Virus record (IMG/VR): IMGVR_UViG_3300042731_007346
Location: 1 to 48,183 of that record
Length of the DNA stretch: 48,183 nucleotides
Source: a virus
Reading direction: 5' to 3' (one strand)
How positions within the stretch are numbered: the first letter of the stretch is position 1; the number at the start of each line of letters is the position of its first letter. The position numbers and the translations under genes are program-made. The notes beneath the pieces were generated by a model that saw only the letters and a program-made list of their open reading frames with translations, was not told the DNA's origin and did not search any database. This document shows positions 5,207 through 32,787 of the stretch, piece by piece.

Positions 5207-5373
5207 AAAAATTAATTTGGGGAGCAGCAGTAATATTATTAATATCTGTTTCAATTACAATAGGATATTACCTATTTATTAACAAAAATAAAGGTGAAGA
5301 CTGGGTAATTTTATTCCAGGCTGATTTGATATTTTATATATTTATGATCTGGATTTGGAAAAAAATTAAATAA
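5203..5373 (+). CDS. Small two-pass membrane protein
   Basis: 56 aa. Hydrophobic stretches at about 4-23 and 36-52 are separated by a charged loop (NKNKGEDW), and the tail is lysine-rich. I chose ATG 5203, with GGAG upstream inside the previous gene, over an in-frame ATG at 5164 that would overlap more. Coupled to the preceding gene by ATGA. Function unknown; a holin or superinfection-exclusion role is possible but not shown. Confidence 0.6.
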   Translation: MKKLIWGAAVILLISVSITIGYYLFINKNKGEDWVILFQADLIFYIFMIWIWKKIK

Positions 5374-5397
5374 AAAAAATTATAAGAAAGGTAAAAA

Positions 5398-5595
5398 ATG
5401 AAATGGATAAAAGTTAAAGAGGTTTTGCCAAAAAGAAAAGAATTGGTAAAACTTAAATGGAGTGATAATTCAACAGGTTATGGCAGACTTGAAAGAATTA
5501 AAGATTTAACTTTTAAGGCATATAATCCAAAATATAAAAGATTTTGGTGTAATTATACAAATACTCCAATTTATTGGAGAAAAATTAAGCATTAA
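5398..5595 (+). CDS. DUF551-like small protein
   Basis: 65 aa, rich in aromatic and basic residues. The opening MKWIKVKEVLPKR and the closing YWRKI resemble the DUF551 pattern (W-I-x-V-K-x-x-L-P at the N-terminus, and a tryptophan-containing C-terminus) common in small phage proteins of unknown function. SD AGAAAGG lies upstream. The match is by eye only. Confidence 0.55.
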   Translation: MKWIKVKEVLPKRKELVKLKWSDNSTGYGRLERIKDLTFKAYNPKYKRFWCNYTNTPIYWRKIKH

Positions 5596-5623
5596 TTTAC
5601 TTGTTTTACAAATAAATTCTAAT

Positions 5624-5743
5624 AGGAGGTAAAGCAAAAAAATATACATCTTTTCATGAGATAGAAATGTAAATGAAAGCGGAAGTTGTTAGTCGAATCA
5701 ACTTTAAAAATCGACTAAATTAAAGATTTAAAAGGAAATTAAA
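5624..5743 (+). promoter_or_regulatory. Structured leader with orphan SD and pseudoknot-like pairing
   Basis: 148 bases separate two genes here. A strong SD (AGGAGGT, from about 5624) is followed by no ATG, GTG or TTG at usable distance. Downstream, AAGTTG (5683-5688) can pair with CAACTT (5699-5704), while TTAGTCGA (5689-5696), inside that loop, pairs perfectly with TCGACTAA (5711-5718). The two helices interlock as an H-type pseudoknot or act as mutually exclusive hairpins. TTTCAT/ATGAAA (about 5652-5677) offers a further helix. It lies just upstream of the gene at 5744. Stem positions are seen; a regulatory role is inferred. Confidence 0.45.
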
Positions 5744-6193
5744 ATGGAAGAAATGGAAAAGAAAGATAAAAGAATCATTGAAATAAATGGAATTAAAATG
5801 GAAGTGGATTTGCGAAATGCAAAACGCATTGATACATTTCATGTCGGGGATCCTGTTAAAGTTCTTGATATGAGTTATTCATCACCCAAAATTAAAGCTG
5901 GTGTTATTGTTGGGTTTGCTGAATTTGAAAACAATCCCGCAATAGAAATAATGGTTTTAGATGATGGTTATAGTGATGTCGATTTTGATTTTATCACGGT
6001 AAAAACGGAAAAAGACCAGCCAAAATACGAAATTGTTCATTATAATAATTACGAAAAGATTTTTACAAAATCAAATATTTTGGATAAATTCAATAGACAA
6101 ATTGAAAAAAAGAAAATAGAAATTGCTGAACTCGAAAGAAAAAGAAAATATTATGTTGATGATTTTCAAAAGGCATTTGAACAAATTATTTAA
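5744..6193 (+). CDS. Hypothetical protein with KOW-like N-terminus and coiled-coil C-terminus
   Basis: 149 aa, family not recognised. Residues 30-80 hold a small beta-rich unit (HVGDPVKVL ... AGVIVGF) resembling KOW/SH3-like folds. Residues 105-149 are charged and heptad-like, so probably a coiled coil. SD AAAGGAAA precedes the ATG. It follows the structured leader and is followed 12 bases later by a tRNA-like element. Confidence 0.6.
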   Translation: MEEMEKKDKRIIEINGIKMEVDLRNAKRIDTFHVGDPVKVLDMSYSSPKIKAGVIVGFAEFENNPAIEIMVLDDGYSDVDFDFITVKTEKDQPKYEIVHYNNYEKIFTKSNILDKFNRQIEKKKIEIAELERKRKYYVDDFQKAFEQII

Positions 6194-6500: not shown

Positions 6501-6685
6501 ATGGATGAGATGGTTAAATATAAATATATTTATATAGAATTTTTGTTTAAAATACCCGAAACGAAAGTTTTTGGAGACAATATTGTTTTGCCCCTGACTC
6601 AGATACTATTTATAGTTCCGAATGTTTAGAAGATATAATTGATTTTATGAAAAATATTAATAATAAAAAAGAAAGTAAATTATGA
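6501..6685 (+). pseudogene. Frameshifted small gene
   Basis: From ATG 6501 (SD AAAGGT) the frame runs MDEMVKYKYIYIEFLFK... to TAG at about 6628. Near GTTTTGCCCCTG (about 6586-6597) the frame one base back continues as APDSDTIYSSECLEDIIDF and reaches TGA at 6683-6685, overlapping the next ATG in the manner normal for this operon. The joined product would be about 60 aa. The CCCC run suggests a one-base indel. Frameshifting in the cell, or a sequencing error, are alternatives. Confidence 0.45.
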
Positions 6686-6891
6686 AACCAAAATATGAAG
6701 ATAAGTTTATAGTAATAAATAAAAAATTTATGAAAAATTTCCCTGTTCATTTGCAGGTCGCAATTTTTGATATTTTAAACGAAATTAATAAGTACATTCC
6801 TGATAATAAATATTATGTATGTAATCAGGATGAACCTTATGCAAAAAAAATAATTGATATTATATTAGAAGGCGAAAAAGAAAAAAAATAG
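6682..6891 (+). CDS. Hypothetical protein
   Basis: 69 aa, not recognised. Mixed alpha/beta composition with a lysine-rich end. Its ATG overlaps the TGA of the frameshifted gene upstream, which implies translational coupling to the second frame of that gene. Confidence 0.55.
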   Translation: MKPKYEDKFIVINKKFMKNFPVHLQVAIFDILNEINKYIPDNKYYVCNQDEPYAKKIIDIILEGEKEKK

Positions 6892-8961: not shown

Positions 8962-9612
8962 ATGACTACAATAGAATTACATATATTTACAAATTGCACA
9001 AAATCAGCTCCGTCTACAGAAATAATTAGAAAAACATATAAGTCTTTTTGTGATACATTTTTTAAAATTGAACCGACTATATGGTGTGATATTAATCCTG
9101 AAAGACATCAAGTTGGATATTATGTGACAAATTTATTGAAAAGTTGTTTTAAACCTGATAAAATAAATATAACAACCTCTTTATCAGATGGATACATAAA
9201 AGCAATAGAAAATTCAAAATCTGAATATTTATTTATGCTGGAACACGATTGGATATTTCAGAAAAAAAATATTAATCATGATTTATTTGAAATAATTGAA
9301 AATATGAGACATGAAAATATACACCATCTTAGATTTAATAAGCGTAAAAATGAACCTAAACTATGGGATAGATGGCTAGAACAATTTAACAGAGGAAATT
9401 TTTATTATTGTGTTACTCCTGCAGTTTCTAATAACCCGCATATAATTAATCGAAAAAAATATTTGCAATTTGTCAGAGAGGGAGCAATTTTAAAAATGCC
9501 TGGCAGTAAAGGTATCGAAGATGAATTAACAAAAAAAACAAATTTATTAGGTTGTATTTATGGCAAAAAAGGACATCCGGCTTGTGTTACACATTTGGAT
9601 GGGAGAAAATAA
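8962..9612 (+). CDS. Putative glycosyltransferase
   Basis: 216 aa. The central YLFMLEHDWIF resembles the strand ending in an acidic metal-binding motif of GT-A glycosyltransferases (E-H-D in place of D-x-D). The N-terminal strand (IELHIFTNC), the downstream histidine-rich segment and the terminal VTHLDGRK also fit this class. No membrane segment, so cytoplasmic. It sits between a methyltransferase and a methyltransferase-like gene. Donor and acceptor are unknown; virion protein or modified DNA are both possible. Confidence 0.6.
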   Translation: MTTIELHIFTNCTKSAPSTEIIRKTYKSFCDTFFKIEPTIWCDINPERHQVGYYVTNLLKSCFKPDKINITTSLSDGYIKAIENSKSEYLFMLEHDWIFQKKNINHDLFEIIENMRHENIHHLRFNKRKNEPKLWDRWLEQFNRGNFYYCVTPAVSNNPHIINRKKYLQFVREGAILKMPGSKGIEDELTKKTNLLGCIYGKKGHPACVTHLDGRK

Positions 9613-11029: not shown

Positions 11030-11251
11030 ATGAAGGCAGAAAATGATTATTTTTATGCAATTATAAAAATTCCAGCTAAAATTTGTAAAGAAGACGCGTT
11101 TGCAGCGTATAAAATTATGCAAATAAATTTTGATGGTTATCAAACAAAAGTTTGGCGAGACGCATATGATGATAAATATCCAAGAATTTTAATGCGGGTT
11201 GGTGAATGCATTGCAGTAAATCTTCCAAAAAAATGGTTAATAAAGATATGA
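11030..11251 (+). CDS. Hypothetical protein
   Basis: 73 aa, not recognised. Good SD AAAGGAGAG. Its last codons overlap the start of the glycosyltransferase that follows (ATGA), so the two are likely coupled. Confidence 0.55.
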   Translation: MKAENDYFYAIIKIPAKICKEDAFAAYKIMQINFDGYQTKVWRDAYDDKYPRILMRVGECIAVNLPKKWLIKI

Positions 11252-11943
11252 AAACATGCGCAATAATAATAGCAGCGTACGATTGTGCAGAATATATAAT
11301 AAAATGCATTAATTCTGTAAAAAATCAATATCGAATACCAGGGTGGCATTATGATCTTAGAATTGGTGTTGATGGATGTAAAAAAACTGCCGATGTTTTA
11401 AAGAAAAATAAGATAAAATTTTATTGGTCCAAAAAAAATGTTGGTGCCTACATTATGCGAAATAGCCTTATAAATTTTGAAAAAGCGGACATTTATAGTT
11501 ATTTCGATGCAGATGACGTTATGTTGCAAGGATATATAAGATATCAAATTAATATAATAAATAATGTTCATCAGGCAGTTTTGCTGGCAAAATATCAATG
11601 CGATAAAAATTTAAATTATATAAATAGAAAACCTATTATTGAAACAGGTGGCGCAATGGCTTTTACACATGAAATTTGGGAAGCATTAGGCGGATATTAT
11701 GGATATCGATGTGCCGGAGATACCGATTTTATGGAAAGGCTAAAAATGGCAGGATTTAAAATTTATGAGAGCCTAAAGGGGATGTATCTACGCAGAAGAC
11801 ATCCAAAATCGCTGACAAAATCAGGAGTGACAAGATACGGTGGAGCATATCGCAAAAAAGCCTGGAAAGAAATGTGTTGGAATAGAGAGCAGGGAATTAT
11901 TAAAATTAAACCTACTATCGTGGGATTGGAGGAAATTAGATGA
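11248..11943 (+). CDS. Glycosyltransferase family 2 protein
   Basis: 231 aa. MKTCAIIIAAYDCAEYIIKC is the nucleotide-sugar-binding start of GT2 enzymes. YFDADDVM (about residue 90) is the DxD metal site, and ETGGAMAF with CAGDTDFMERL are the acceptor-side motifs, including the E/D-D region before the catalytic base. I chose ATG 11248 over an upstream ATG at 11206, since the fold begins there. It would transfer a sugar from a nucleotide donor; the acceptor is unknown. One of three GT-like genes in the phage. Confidence 0.8.
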   Translation: MKTCAIIIAAYDCAEYIIKCINSVKNQYRIPGWHYDLRIGVDGCKKTADVLKKNKIKFYWSKKNVGAYIMRNSLINFEKADIYSYFDADDVMLQGYIRYQINIINNVHQAVLLAKYQCDKNLNYINRKPIIETGGAMAFTHEIWEALGGYYGYRCAGDTDFMERLKMAGFKIYESLKGMYLRRRHPKSLTKSGVTRYGGAYRKKAWKEMCWNREQGIIKIKPTIVGLEEIR

Positions 11944-12134: not shown

Positions 12135-12449
12135 ATGCCACAACCAAGAAATATATTAGTAACAATAAAAAAATTATTTAAAAATAAATACATCGGAATA
12201 AATGATTGTAATGGGAAAAAAATTTATTGTGGTGACACTTTAGAGGTAACAATAAAAGAAGAATCAGAAATTTACAAAACCACTGGAATTGTTAAATTTA
12301 ATAATAATAAAGCCAAATTTGTTGTAAAAATTAAGCCAATCGATATGTTGCATTTTAAAGAACTAGATTTTATTGATGGATTTAACAGTCCTCAAGGGGG
12401 TTATAGCATAAATTATAAATTTATTTTTAAAAGGATGATCTCTAAATGA
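12135..12449 (+). CDS. YopX C-terminal-domain-like protein
   Basis: 104 aa. YIGINDCNGKKIYCGD matches by eye the YopX core pattern (YTGLKDKNGKEIYEGD), followed by the usual V...GxVKF...F segment. YopX proteins are common in phage accessory regions with no known function. The usual N-terminal half is absent here, while a gene at 15,753 has that half alone. Starts immediately after the previous TAA. Confidence 0.6.
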   Translation: MPQPRNILVTIKKLFKNKYIGINDCNGKKIYCGDTLEVTIKEESEIYKTTGIVKFNNNKAKFVVKIKPIDMLHFKELDFIDGFNSPQGGYSINYKFIFKRMISK

Positions 12450-13456
12450 GCAAACCAATAAACATATCAGCAAGCAGAGGTGCAGCCGTTCTTGGCCTTT
12501 CAAAATGGCAAACTCCGGTTGAAGTCTGGTTACAAATTATGGAAAACAGAGAACCAGGATTTTGTAAAAAATATAATTATGAATTACCGGAATTTGAGTA
12601 CACTTCAGTTCAAAAATGGGGCCATGCTTTTGAGGACGCTATAATTGAATTGGCTGAAAATGAAATTAATTATAAAATTATAGATAGAGAAAAATTATAT
12701 GAAAAAGATTTTTTGACAACTCATATCGATGGAAGATATTTAGGATCAAATTTTCTCCATGAAGGGAAAACAACAAATTTTCGCTCTTTTCGGGAAGAAT
12801 GGGGAGAACCTGCTACAGACCAAGTTCCGATAATCTATCAAATACAATGCCAGCATCAGATGATTTGTACAGGAGCAGAAAAAGTAATTTTATCAGTTTT
12901 AGTTTTTCCAAAAATGGTTGATGAATGGGAAAAAGAAGGCTGGGAAGTTAGAGAATATAATGGAAAATATGAAATTAGAAAAATAATAGATAGAATAAAT
13001 TTTATTGATAGAGATCCTTTTTATTGGGCAAACATATTAAATGAAATGGGCTATTTCCACCAGTACGAAATTACATCAAACGCAGAATTACAAAAATTAA
13101 TGATTGAGAAATGTACAGAATTCTGGAATAATCATGTTTTAACTGGCGTACCACCAGAAGCAAAAAATTATGATGATATTAAACGATTAGTGAGAGAACC
13201 AGTCGGAACTATCATTGCTGACGAGCGAATAGAACTACTTATGAGCGAATATAAGCAAATACGGCACGAAATTAGCCCTACAGGTCTACTGGCTCAAAGA
13301 TGCGATCAAATCAGGCTTGAAATATTAAAATTTATGGACAAATCTGAAAATGTTAATGACGATGATAGCAAAGATAAATATATTCTTAGAGATAGAACCG
13401 GGAAAAAAATTGCAAGTTATAGCAAAAATAAAAATGGGACTTTTATATTTAGGTAG
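12446..13456 (+). CDS. YqaJ-like viral recombinase exonuclease
   Basis: 336 aa. SRGAAVLGLSKWQTPVEVW is the characteristic N-terminal motif. HAFEDAIIELAE contributes the first acidic residue, THIDGRYLG the catalytic D, and LHEGKTT the E-x-K of the PD-(D/E)XK core. It would resect dsDNA 5' ends to give 3' tails for the RecT annealase encoded 1 kb downstream, as in lambda Red and Rac RecE/RecT. It ends in TAG, then TAA three codons on. Confidence 0.85.
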   Translation: MSKPINISASRGAAVLGLSKWQTPVEVWLQIMENREPGFCKKYNYELPEFEYTSVQKWGHAFEDAIIELAENEINYKIIDREKLYEKDFLTTHIDGRYLGSNFLHEGKTTNFRSFREEWGEPATDQVPIIYQIQCQHQMICTGAEKVILSVLVFPKMVDEWEKEGWEVREYNGKYEIRKIIDRINFIDRDPFYWANILNEMGYFHQYEITSNAELQKLMIEKCTEFWNNHVLTGVPPEAKNYDDIKRLVREPVGTIIADERIELLMSEYKQIRHEISPTGLLAQRCDQIRLEILKFMDKSENVNDDDSKDKYILRDRTGKKIASYSKNKNGTFIFR

Positions 13457-13646: not shown

Positions 13647-13838
13647 ATGAAAATAGGTGCTTTGTGGTTGAAAGAAAAAGACGGCAAAAAATATTATTCA
13701 GGAACAATTGAGTTTCCAGGAATAAAATTAAATTTTGCAATTTTTAAAAATGAAGAGAAACAGCAGGATAATTAGCCGGATTATAACATCGTCTGGAGTC
13801 CTGCAAAGAAAAATAATTCAGAAGATATTCCATTTTAA
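13647..13838 (+). CDS. DUF736-like protein with in-frame UAG before an SSB-type C-terminal tip
   Basis: The frame opens MKIGALWLKEKDGKKYYSG, a DUF736-like start, and reaches TAG at 13773-13775 after 42 codons. The same frame continues without further stops for 20 codons (PDYNIVW ... SEDIPF) to TAA at 13836. In the related proteins I know, PDYxIVW follows directly and the TAG takes a position often held by Q or another residue. The last residues match the SSB C-terminal tip (DDDIPF) that recruits recombination and replication partners. It sits between the YqaJ exonuclease and RecT. Stop readthrough, a recent amber mutation, or two outcomes in a ratio are all possible; other genes use TAG as a true stop. 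Confidence 0.65.
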
Positions 13839-13853
13839 GGAGGGTGGTAAGAA

Positions 13854-14030
13854 ATGAAAAAAATAATATGGGCTTTAAAACAATTATTGCCATTGCGATA
13901 TAAATCAAAATATAGCTATCTTTCTAATGGGGAAATAAAAGGTAATACAGTATTTTTTAATATGTGGTTTGGAAAATGTTTTAATATTAAATATATTTTT
14001 GGGAATGATTTCCAGGAGGTAATTAAATGA
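13854..14030 (+). CDS. Hypothetical protein
   Basis: 58 aa, not recognised; aromatic-rich. SD AGGAGGGTGG directly follows the TAA at 13,836, which places the true end of the previous gene there rather than at the TAG. Overlaps the next gene by 4 bases. Confidence 0.55.
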   Translation: MKKIIWALKQLLPLRYKSKYSYLSNGEIKGNTVFFNMWFGKCFNIKYIFGNDFQEVIK

Positions 14031-14203: not shown

Positions 14204-14372
14204 AATTAAAAACTTATTAATCGAGGCCGGATATTATAGAGGCGAAACACCTGCATTATTTCATATCGAAATTTTTGAAGGAAAATTCCCAGCGCCTTTA
14301 TGCCTCATAAATTTAAAAATTTATAAATTTGTATTAACTATTCATATCACAAAAAAAGGAGTAATACTATGA
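14193..14372 (+). CDS. Hypothetical protein
   Basis: 59 aa from ATG 14193 (SD AAAGGAGAG); the frame is open further upstream but only this start has an SD. Beta-rich, not recognised. ATGA overlap with recT. Confidence 0.55.
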   Translation: MNIKIKNLLIEAGYYRGETPALFHIEIFEGKFPAPLCLINLKIYKFVLTIHITKKGVIL

Positions 14373-15181
14373 CAGATAAAAATTTACCAGCAACAAAAGA
14401 ATCATTGACAGGACAATTCTTACAGCATTTCGGGAAATCATTAAAAGAGTATGCAATTAGAAAATACGATGAAACTGCGTTTTTGAAATCTGCAATGATT
14501 GCAATTGTCGAAAAACCTGAACTTGTCGAAGTTCTTAAAACTGAGCAAGGGAAATTATCAGTTTATAATGCTCTTCGATATGCAGCAACAACAGGATTAT
14601 CTCTGAATCCGGCAGAAGGGAAAAGCGCATTAATTGGATTTAAGGGAAAAGATGGAAATTTTAAAGTTTCATATCAAATTATGAAAAATGGAATGGTTGA
14701 TCTTGCTCTGGAATCCGGCAAAGTTGAATTTTTAAGTTCTGATTTGGTAAGACAAAATGATAAATTTGAGCTAAAAAAATCCATGCAAGGAGACGACTAT
14801 AATTTTATTCCTGCTATGAAAGATAGGGGTGAAGTTATAGGATTTTTTGCAGCATTAAAATTAAAATCTGGTGCAACACATGTAAAATGGATGACAGTAG
14901 AAGAAATTAATGAAATGCGTGATAGTTATTCAGCAACTTTTAAATATAATCCGGAAAATTCCCCCTGGTCAAAATCATTTAATGGTATGGGACTGAAAAC
15001 TGTAATGAAAGCGTTGCTACGCAATATAAGTATTTCTCCAGAAATTGACAATGCCGTTGGTGCAGATGATTTTTATGAAACAGATTTTAAAAGCTATGGA
15101 ACTCCCGAAACAGCAATAAAAAAAATTGAAGCTGCAGACGAAAAGGTTGTTGCTAAAAAAGAACCGGATGATTTATTATAA
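14369..15181 (+). CDS. recT: RecT-family single-strand annealing protein
   Basis: 270 aa, a normal length. ATTGLSLNPAEGKSALIGF and SYQIMKNGMVDLALESGKVEFL match the RecT core, followed by the conserved MGLKTVMKALLRN. It anneals complementary ssDNA and works with the YqaJ exonuclease. The C-terminus (EKVVAKKEPDDLL) is acidic and not SSB-like. SD AAAAGGAG. A tRNA-like element begins 13 bases after its stop. Confidence 0.9.
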   Translation: MTDKNLPATKESLTGQFLQHFGKSLKEYAIRKYDETAFLKSAMIAIVEKPELVEVLKTEQGKLSVYNALRYAATTGLSLNPAEGKSALIGFKGKDGNFKVSYQIMKNGMVDLALESGKVEFLSSDLVRQNDKFELKKSMQGDDYNFIPAMKDRGEVIGFFAALKLKSGATHVKWMTVEEINEMRDSYSATFKYNPENSPWSKSFNGMGLKTVMKALLRNISISPEIDNAVGADDFYETDFKSYGTPETAIKKIEAADEKVVAKKEPDDLL

Positions 15182-17844: not shown

Positions 17845-18426
17845 ATGCGTGAAATAGATTATAATTCCCAAAGAGATAATTTTAATTTTGATGGCGGTTT
17901 TTCAGGATATAAACAATGTTTTTCAACTTGTGCCTGGATGTTCCTATCTTATTATGGACAATTTTATGATGGGACAGACGATGCAATGTTAAAAAATTAT
18001 GTAGATGAAGTTGAAGCAGAGGTTGGAAAGGCGGGAATTGCAGAAGAAATTAAAAAAAAATATAGCTGGATTAAAGGTAAAACTTCTTACTGGGCATTAG
18101 TGCAGCAGGCAGCTATACAAGATTATTTGCCAAATAAAAAAATAATTTTTGATGAATTTTATGATATTGAAGATTTACGAAGTTTAGTAATCAAGGGACC
18201 TGTTATTATTCATACTTCAAAAATTGGTGGATTAAAAGGAGGTCATATAATTTTGTTAGTAGATTATTTGCCGAATGTCGATGTATTTGTAGTTAATGAC
18301 CCTTTTGGAGATGCAAGAAGTAACTATAAAAATGATAATGGGAAAGAGATTCCTTATAGATTTGACTGGCTTAAAAAATATATTAATAGGGGGAAAGGGA
18401 AATGTCTGGTAATTTATGCAGAATAA
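17845..18426 (+). CDS. Papain-like cysteine peptidase (C39-like family 2)
   Basis: 193 aa. QCFSTCAWMFLSYYG (24-38) fits the nucleophile motif QCGxxxLAMxLxYYG, with C25 as the likely catalytic residue. GGHIILLVDYLP gives the histidine and VNDPFGDA the N/D. This is the pattern of Peptidase_C39-like proteins. No signal peptide. Strong SD AAGGAGGT. In phage it might process a protein or peptide or act as an amidase; substrate unknown. It lies next to the lipase-like gene, forming a small hydrolase block. Confidence 0.75.
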   Translation: MREIDYNSQRDNFNFDGGFSGYKQCFSTCAWMFLSYYGQFYDGTDDAMLKNYVDEVEAEVGKAGIAEEIKKKYSWIKGKTSYWALVQQAAIQDYLPNKKIIFDEFYDIEDLRSLVIKGPVIIHTSKIGGLKGGHIILLVDYLPNVDVFVVNDPFGDARSNYKNDNGKEIPYRFDWLKKYINRGKGKCLVIYAE

Positions 18427-31076: not shown

Positions 31077-31570
31077 GAAGTTTTTACCTCATCAATTTTT
31101 GCTAAACTTAAATCTAAGGTCAGAGTCCCAGCTGATCCTGATCCATCATCTTTTGTTGCTAAGGCTGCATTTATAGCAGTTACAAGAGTCTGTAACGCTG
31201 TATTTAATTCTGACCATCTAACCGCATTATCAGCATTCCCATTTAATTCAATTTCTCCTGCACTATTCAATTTTAATCTTGCTAATTTTGTTGTAACCGG
31301 ATTGTCTGTACTATATATTTCTTTCTCCCCTGGATCTGTTTCCGGTTCTAAATTATCCGTTGTTTCAATCCCAATTTGCGAACTTTCTTCTGCATCTGCT
31401 ACAAATACACGACTCCCGATTGCAGGATTATAATCCTCCCCGGATCCTGGCATTAATTCAACTGTTCTTATATCATCCTCTAACATTTCGACCTGCAATA
31501 AAATTCTATTTTTATCGCCATCTTTATTTTTTGCGATTGAATGCCCTTTTATAATTCCTATTCCAGCCAC
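31073..31570 (-). CDS. Baseplate spike/assembly protein, gp45/gpV-like
   Basis: 165 aa. An N-terminal OB-like domain (ILLQVEMLEDDIRTVELMPGSGEDYNPAIGSRVFVA) is followed by a short beta-helix segment (LARLKLNSAGEIELNG) and a terminal helix. Matches Mu gp45-type spikes that pierce the outer membrane. Short, and lacks a visible HxH iron motif. Confidence 0.75.
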   Translation of the reverse strand: MAGIGIIKGHSIAKNKDGDKNRILLQVEMLEDDIRTVELMPGSGEDYNPAIGSRVFVADAEESSQIGIETTDNLEPETDPGEKEIYSTDNPVTTKLARLKLNSAGEIELNGNADNAVRWSELNTALQTLVTAINAALATKDDGSGSAGTLTLDLSLAKIDEVKTS

Positions 31571-32787
31571 GGTTCTTTTATCTCTCCTGTTGTATATACA
31601 GATGGCGGTTTCAATTTCAAAACGCCTGTTGATCCAGATGCGACATAATCAAGTTCTACTTGATTTATCAAAAATGTAAAGCCATTTTTTATTTCCAATT
31701 CCGGGGAAATAACGGTTATTGTTGTATTCGGTTTCCAAATTTTCCCGTTTTCATCAAAAATTGTATTAACTGGAAAACTTAAAGGCATCGAATCTGCAGC
31801 AACTTTATTTTTTCTCCATTCGGCCGCATTTTTCGCCTGACCTGGAATACTATCACCTGCCGAAAAAGTTAAAAATCTATTTATCGGTACCGCGTTGTCT
31901 GTAGCAGTTCCAGATTTTCTTGCCCTATTAGACCTGGAAGATGAGGCAATTGCTTTATAAAATTTAAATCTATTTCGACCGTTAAATTTTGCTAAATATT
32001 GATCGCTTATACCTGTCTCAACTCTAATTGTTCCAACAGGTTGACTATTAGTTTGTGCTTTTGTAATTAATAAATCTCCCCTAATTGTACAGGAAAGAAG
32101 ATAACCTCTCTGAATTGCTAATTTTTTTAAATGATCAAAAATTTTATCAGTTTGCTTCGCAGAAACTCTTGGAAATTTAATCTCCTGATAAACCATTTTT
32201 CTCCCCTGCACTGCCTCAAAAACTTCTACATCTGCATTATATTTTTTGATTACTTTTTGTGATTCATCAAAGGCTGTTTTTTGCAAAGAATTTAAAAATG
32301 TTTTATCTGCATCAAAACTTAATTCTTTTTCTTTAACACGGACATATCTTTCTACCGGTACAGATTGCCATTTATAAAGTTCAACTCCTGCATCAATTAA
32401 TACATTTATTCCGAATTTTTCACATTGTTGTTTACATCGTGCAAGAAGACCAATGTTATTTGCTTCATATGGATATACAACTGTCGAATCAATTATATCA
32501 GCTGTTTTGCTGAAAATTTCAAGATCTTTAGAAATCCCAGACTTTGAAAATTTTGGAGATACATTATATAATCTTCCCATCATCTGTAATTCATCATCAA
32601 TATATAATTCTGTATCCTGGTATCCATAGGCACGTAATGCCTCATCAATTTCTGTATCTTTGCCTGGCTCCCACGGGGTATTAACATTTAAAGCATCTGC
32701 CCCTGTGTCCATAGTTTTCAAAAATTTTGCGCTGTTAATTATTATTTCTTTTCCATTTATATATAATGTCCATTTTGGTTCAGGCAT
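31558..32787 (-). CDS. Baseplate hub, Mu gpP/gpD-like
   Basis: 409 aa. WTLYINGKEIIINSAKF, ELYIDDELQMMGRLYN and the C-terminal beta domains match Mu P (gp44-like) hub proteins, which form the central platform between tube and spike. Overlaps both neighbours by a few bases. Confidence 0.8.
   Translation of the reverse strand: MPEPKWTLYINGKEIIINSAKFLKTMDTGADALNVNTPWEPGKDTEIDEALRAYGYQDTELYIDDELQMMGRLYNVSPKFSKSGISKDLEIFSKTADIIDSTVVYPYEANNIGLLARCKQQCEKFGINVLIDAGVELYKWQSVPVERYVRVKEKELSFDADKTFLNSLQKTAFDESQKVIKKYNADVEVFEAVQGRKMVYQEIKFPRVSAKQTDKIFDHLKKLAIQRGYLLSCTIRGDLLITKAQTNSQPVGTIRVETGISDQYLAKFNGRNRFKFYKAIASSSRSNRARKSGTATDNAVPINRFLTFSAGDSIPGQAKNAAEWRKNKVAADSMPLSFPVNTIFDENGKIWKPNTTITVISPELEIKNGFTFLINQVELDYVASGSTGVLKLKPPSVYTTGEIKEPWLE

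Follow-up and report, generated by a model that had tools for sequence, protein, structure and literature searches.

SSB docks onto DNA-metabolism proteins through its tip. Such tips close a flexible tail with acidic residues and a final PF, as in DDDIPF of Escherichia coli SSB and NDYPPF of the SSB of phage HK620; the latter shows that stimulation of an annealing protein can depend on such a tip (PMC5928155). A second set of described systems concerns TAG codons inside genes. Code-15 phages, crAss-like phages among them, read TAG as a sense codon genome-wide, avoid it as a stop, and carry it at positions where relatives have Gln (PMC9523058, PMC11210395); about half of them lack an amber suppressor tRNA (PMC11210395).

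The locus described here lies in an IMG/VR virus record (IMGVR_UViG_3300042731_007346), and the window referred to below is the whole stretch of 48,183 nucleotides that was analysed. It encodes a small DUF736-type protein with an SSB-like tip, whose reading frame is interrupted by a TAG. Very probably this TAG arose by a recent amber mutation, or stems from a wrong base in the metagenome consensus, inside the gene for that protein. The stop itself is probably an ordinary one.

The interrupted frame and its surroundings

The features on which the comparison rests are as follows.

12446-13456, + strand: YqaJ-type exonuclease gene, itself ended by TAG (Pfam PF09588, 63.0 bits)
13647-13838, + strand: frame for the DUF736-type protein, with the internal TAG counted among its 63 codons (Pfam, homologues)
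13773-13775, + strand: in-frame TAG, codon 43, sense in all homologues examined
13776-13802, + strand: conserved domain end PDYNIVWSP, holding predicted strand 46-52 (alignment and predicted structure)
13818-13835, + strand: SSB-like acidic tip SEDIPF (translation, homologue ends)
13836-13844, + strand: TAA stop with GGAGGG directly 3' of it, the Shine-Dalgarno sequence of the ORF at 13854
14369-15181, + strand: RecT-type annealing protein gene (Pfam PF03837, 88.7 bits)

From its ATG at 13647 the frame runs to the TAG at codon 43, stays open for 20 further codons and closes with TAA at 13836-13838. It translates as MKIGALWLKEKDGKKYYSGTIEFPGIKLNFAIFKNEEKQQDN up to the TAG, with EEKQQDN directly before it, and as PDYNIVWSPAKKNNSEDIPF from there to the TAA. 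Much of the sequence-only reading of this locus is borne out by these letters. It had reported the TAG at 13773 with 20 stop-free codons behind it, the tip EDIPF (the frame ends in SEDIPF, and xPF ends recur among homologues), the family-like residues PDYNIVW (the closest relative and a related phage, G009, both have exactly PDYNIVWS), and a next Shine-Dalgarno sequence behind the TAA rather than behind the TAG, where GGAGGG indeed starts directly after 13838 and the next ATG stands at 13854. The position between the YqaJ exonuclease and RecT was confirmed by Pfam for both neighbours, with other small ORFs lying on both sides of the gene in the interval.

Taken alone, the openness of the frame after the TAG is weak evidence, because at least 20 in-frame sense codons follow 23% of the TAG triplets of this AT-rich window. 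The frame after the TAG is nonetheless more than chance, because its inclusion raises the DUF736 score and its residues match those of relatives exactly over PDYNIVWS; on this sequence comparison the downstream part reads as genuine coding sequence. If the TAG is counted as a residue, DUF736 (PF05284) is matched at 25.9 bits, above the Pfam gathering cut-off of 22.1, as the proposed family assignment had anticipated, whereas the 42-residue product by itself reaches only 14.3 bits and stays below it.

In the closest relative the homologue is followed directly by the gene for a phage replication protein O and has a DnaB-type helicase gene in its vicinity. G009, found through its terminase (64% identical), is a 47.7-kb phage record that has the YqaJ exonuclease and other genes in common with the window, and its homologue belongs to the YqaJ gene cluster, some genes upstream of YqaJ. 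No RecT was found in the G009 record, and a search of viral contigs through RecT returned no relatives of the window.

Several other genes of the window were recorded alongside. A radical SAM gene (1933-2727; Pfam, 41.3 bits) lies between the DNA methylase and terminase large subunit genes, and two genes that by eye resemble glycosyltransferases (8962-9612 and 11206-11943) lie near the recombination genes and are both shared with G009 (L066:2473-3153 and 5338-6033). A conserved gene at 17845-18426, also present in G009, and its counterpart at L068:4631-5290 resemble by eye a C39-type cysteine peptidase (QCFSTCAWMF, GGHIILLVD).

Homologues, fold and the place of the stop

The protein query returned two close IMG/VR relatives, and a profile of the three sequences returned 40 IMG/VR loci and one locus in a Kapaibacterium MAG. 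Every homologue examined has a sense codon where the window has TAG: CAA or CAG (Gln) in most, CAC (His) or AGA (Arg) in a few. One of the two search patterns included this Gln and thus favours it; the relatives found with the other pattern (e.g., L003, L007, L023 to L027, and L033 to L035) have sense codons there too. The G009 homologue has GCA (Ala) at this position, ends in ENAPDYNIVWSERNENN and lacks the tip. Alignment to homologues, put forward earlier as a check of readthrough, thus found the TAG conserved nowhere, and a single base separates TAG from the Gln codon CAG. The pattern scans of IMG/VR, outside which records very near the window may lie, yielded no homologue with the TAG version of the gene. 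Among the records searched, the internal TAG is peculiar to this genome when set against other DUF736 proteins; that it occurs in one genome only does not follow from empty scans. Two apparent further carriers, L048 and L069 (a DnaJ-like gene), proved to be unrelated matches to the DNA pattern, and L046 and L047 were rejected as relatives, being long proteins of other kinds in which DNQPDYN occurs by chance.

Sixteen of the 20 aligned homologues match DUF736 at E up to 0.1. The Pfam model has 99 positions, of which the read-through protein matches only 9-45, and compared with the family the window protein is shorter, with one copy of the motif followed by the tip. In L018-L021 and L028 the same domain stands twice in tandem within one 131-residue protein, which recalls the doubled motif suggested by the 99-position model.

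Only M1, W7 and P44 are invariant in the 20-sequence alignment, and P44, conserved in 20/20, directly follows the TAG. An AlphaFold2 model built from this alignment (mean pLDDT 82) places strands at 4-11, 14-23, 26-34 and 46-52, with a low-confidence end from residue 56. The stop at 43 precedes the predicted strand 46-52 and therefore takes away the fourth strand and the tip together, so that the short form is, on the model, a truncated domain. The sequence-only reading had the UAG parting a DUF736-like protein from its tip; the TAG instead lies inside the domain. Searches of solved structures by sequence and by fold gave no significant match; WHY2, MRP1/MRP2 and PURA, which bind nucleic acids, came up as weak fold matches (E above 1) and offer no more than a lead.

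Between the window and its closest relative, codons 44-52 show 2 synonymous and 0 nonsynonymous differences, and codons 2-42 about 18 nonsynonymous differences with synonymous sites saturated. The part after the TAG is thus not decayed, as the sequence-only reading had expected. Such conservation would be seen with a recent stop, with an error in the consensus and with readthrough use alike; it cannot separate these readings, because the compared genomes all lack the stop. Comparison with two relatives gave a weak hint of constraint on synonymous sites after the TAG (p = 0.08 and 0.05); as two others showed none, it was dropped as evidence.

Mutation, readthrough and recoding

A mutation is favoured because the homologues all have a sense codon where the window has TAG, P44 is invariant, strand 46-52 would be lost, and the DUF736 match needs the part after the TAG. 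The ancestral gene product may be pictured as a beta domain of four strands and about 52 residues that is joined by a short disordered linker to an acidic SSB-like tip, and it probably served phage DNA replication or recombination by docking on DNA-metabolism proteins through that tip. In this genome TAG stands at codon 43, which is usually Gln in relatives, and termination there would yield a 42-residue fragment that lacks both the last core strand and the tip. The gene would then most likely be inactive or retain only such activity as basal amber suppression allows, and that suppression might still yield a little full-length protein. As the remainder of the gene is intact, the change would either have arisen recently or reflect a wrong base in the consensus; these two are indistinguishable in the present data. 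Against a mutation, it can be held that the lack of decay after the TAG suits readthrough use too and that the TAG is known from only one genome.

Functional readthrough, in which a useful fraction of ribosomes would decode the UAG and so produce a short form beside a long form with an SSB-type tip, was the main proposal of the sequence-only reading, and we consider it unlikely. The downstream part of the frame is conserved and undecayed, the window tip matches those of the homologues, and the base after the stop is C, which would make for a leaky context. Against this, the TAG is found in none of the homologues examined, the IMG/VR pattern scans turned up no other homologue with it, and the short form would not be a complete product to which a module is added, lacking as it does a core strand and P44. 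No stimulating RNA structure was found after the stop (z = 0.38 for a pseudoknot-free fold over 88 nt). The plain amber mutation that the same reading had named as its simple alternative is the better account, given the sense codons of the homologues and a stop inside the domain. A related and very unlikely scenario is a lineage-specific amber codon, with UAG suppression as the condition for full-length, tip-bearing protein, which would make a recombination accessory dependent on host decoding.

It is still less probable, with only the slightest of chances, that TAG is read as Gln generally in the phage or its host, through code 15 or a suppressor tRNA. The TAG does sit where relatives have Gln, as in code-15 phages, and a suppressor tRNA might be encoded elsewhere, by the host or in a missing part of a possibly incomplete record. 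Unlike in those phages, however, the case is a single one, and no second gene with family support was seen to carry an internal TAG in the window. No tRNA gene, suppressor or other, is present in the record, a suppressor being absent from about half of code-15 phages too. TAG serves as a normal stop for the DNA methylase gene (761-1924; followed by GAGGAAATATG), an ORF at 6682-6891 (followed by AGAGGAGAAATG), YqaJ and a baseplate-type gene (31558-32787), the first two having a Shine-Dalgarno sequence and ATG directly behind. We reject code 15 for this phage, as TAG terminates these other genes. Two candidates for further split frames were set aside: 6682-6891, for the Shine-Dalgarno sequence and ATG that follow its TAG, and the frame after 43629, which is without family support. 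The idea that the locus holds two genes, one for a 42-residue protein and one for a separate peptide behind the TAG, has virtually nothing to recommend it except the stop itself; no in-frame ATG, GTG or TTG follows the TAG, and all homologues hold both parts in one frame, which already refutes this arrangement.

An SSB-like tip on a DUF736-type domain

An exact [IVL]PF end is found in 9/20 aligned homologues, the window included, and PF plus one residue in 2 more (11/20), while none of the 258 window ORFs of 40 aa or more ends in PF. The linkers before the tip vary in length and sequence among the 20 homologues. SEDIPF has the acidic C-terminal end in xPF of an SSB-type tip, which it shares with homologues, and like an SSB tip it closes a flexible tail. 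Unlike in SSB, the window tip is carried by a DUF736-type domain with no recognised SSB domain (Phage_SSB, PF16773, scores 13.3 bits against a cut-off of 25) and here stands behind a stop. Small DUF736-type proteins tipped with xPF were also seen at L002:4001-4237, L003:1644-1934, L009, L011, L022, L023, L029, L033 and L035.

The intact protein is probably best described as one of phage replication or recombination that would dock through its SSB-like tip. It is possible, judging from their sequences, that DUF736-type proteins with SSB-like tips and variable linkers form an unrecognised family of SSB-like adaptors. For stop codons within genes, the locus indicates that a conserved frame behind the stop is insufficient to call readthrough, and that what decides is where in the fold the stop falls and whether relatives lack it. 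Many uncultivated phages carry small DUF736-type proteins, whose genes lie next to replication or recombination genes in the cases inspected, and their frequent tip offers this functionally uncharacterised family an SSB-like adaptor role that can be tested.
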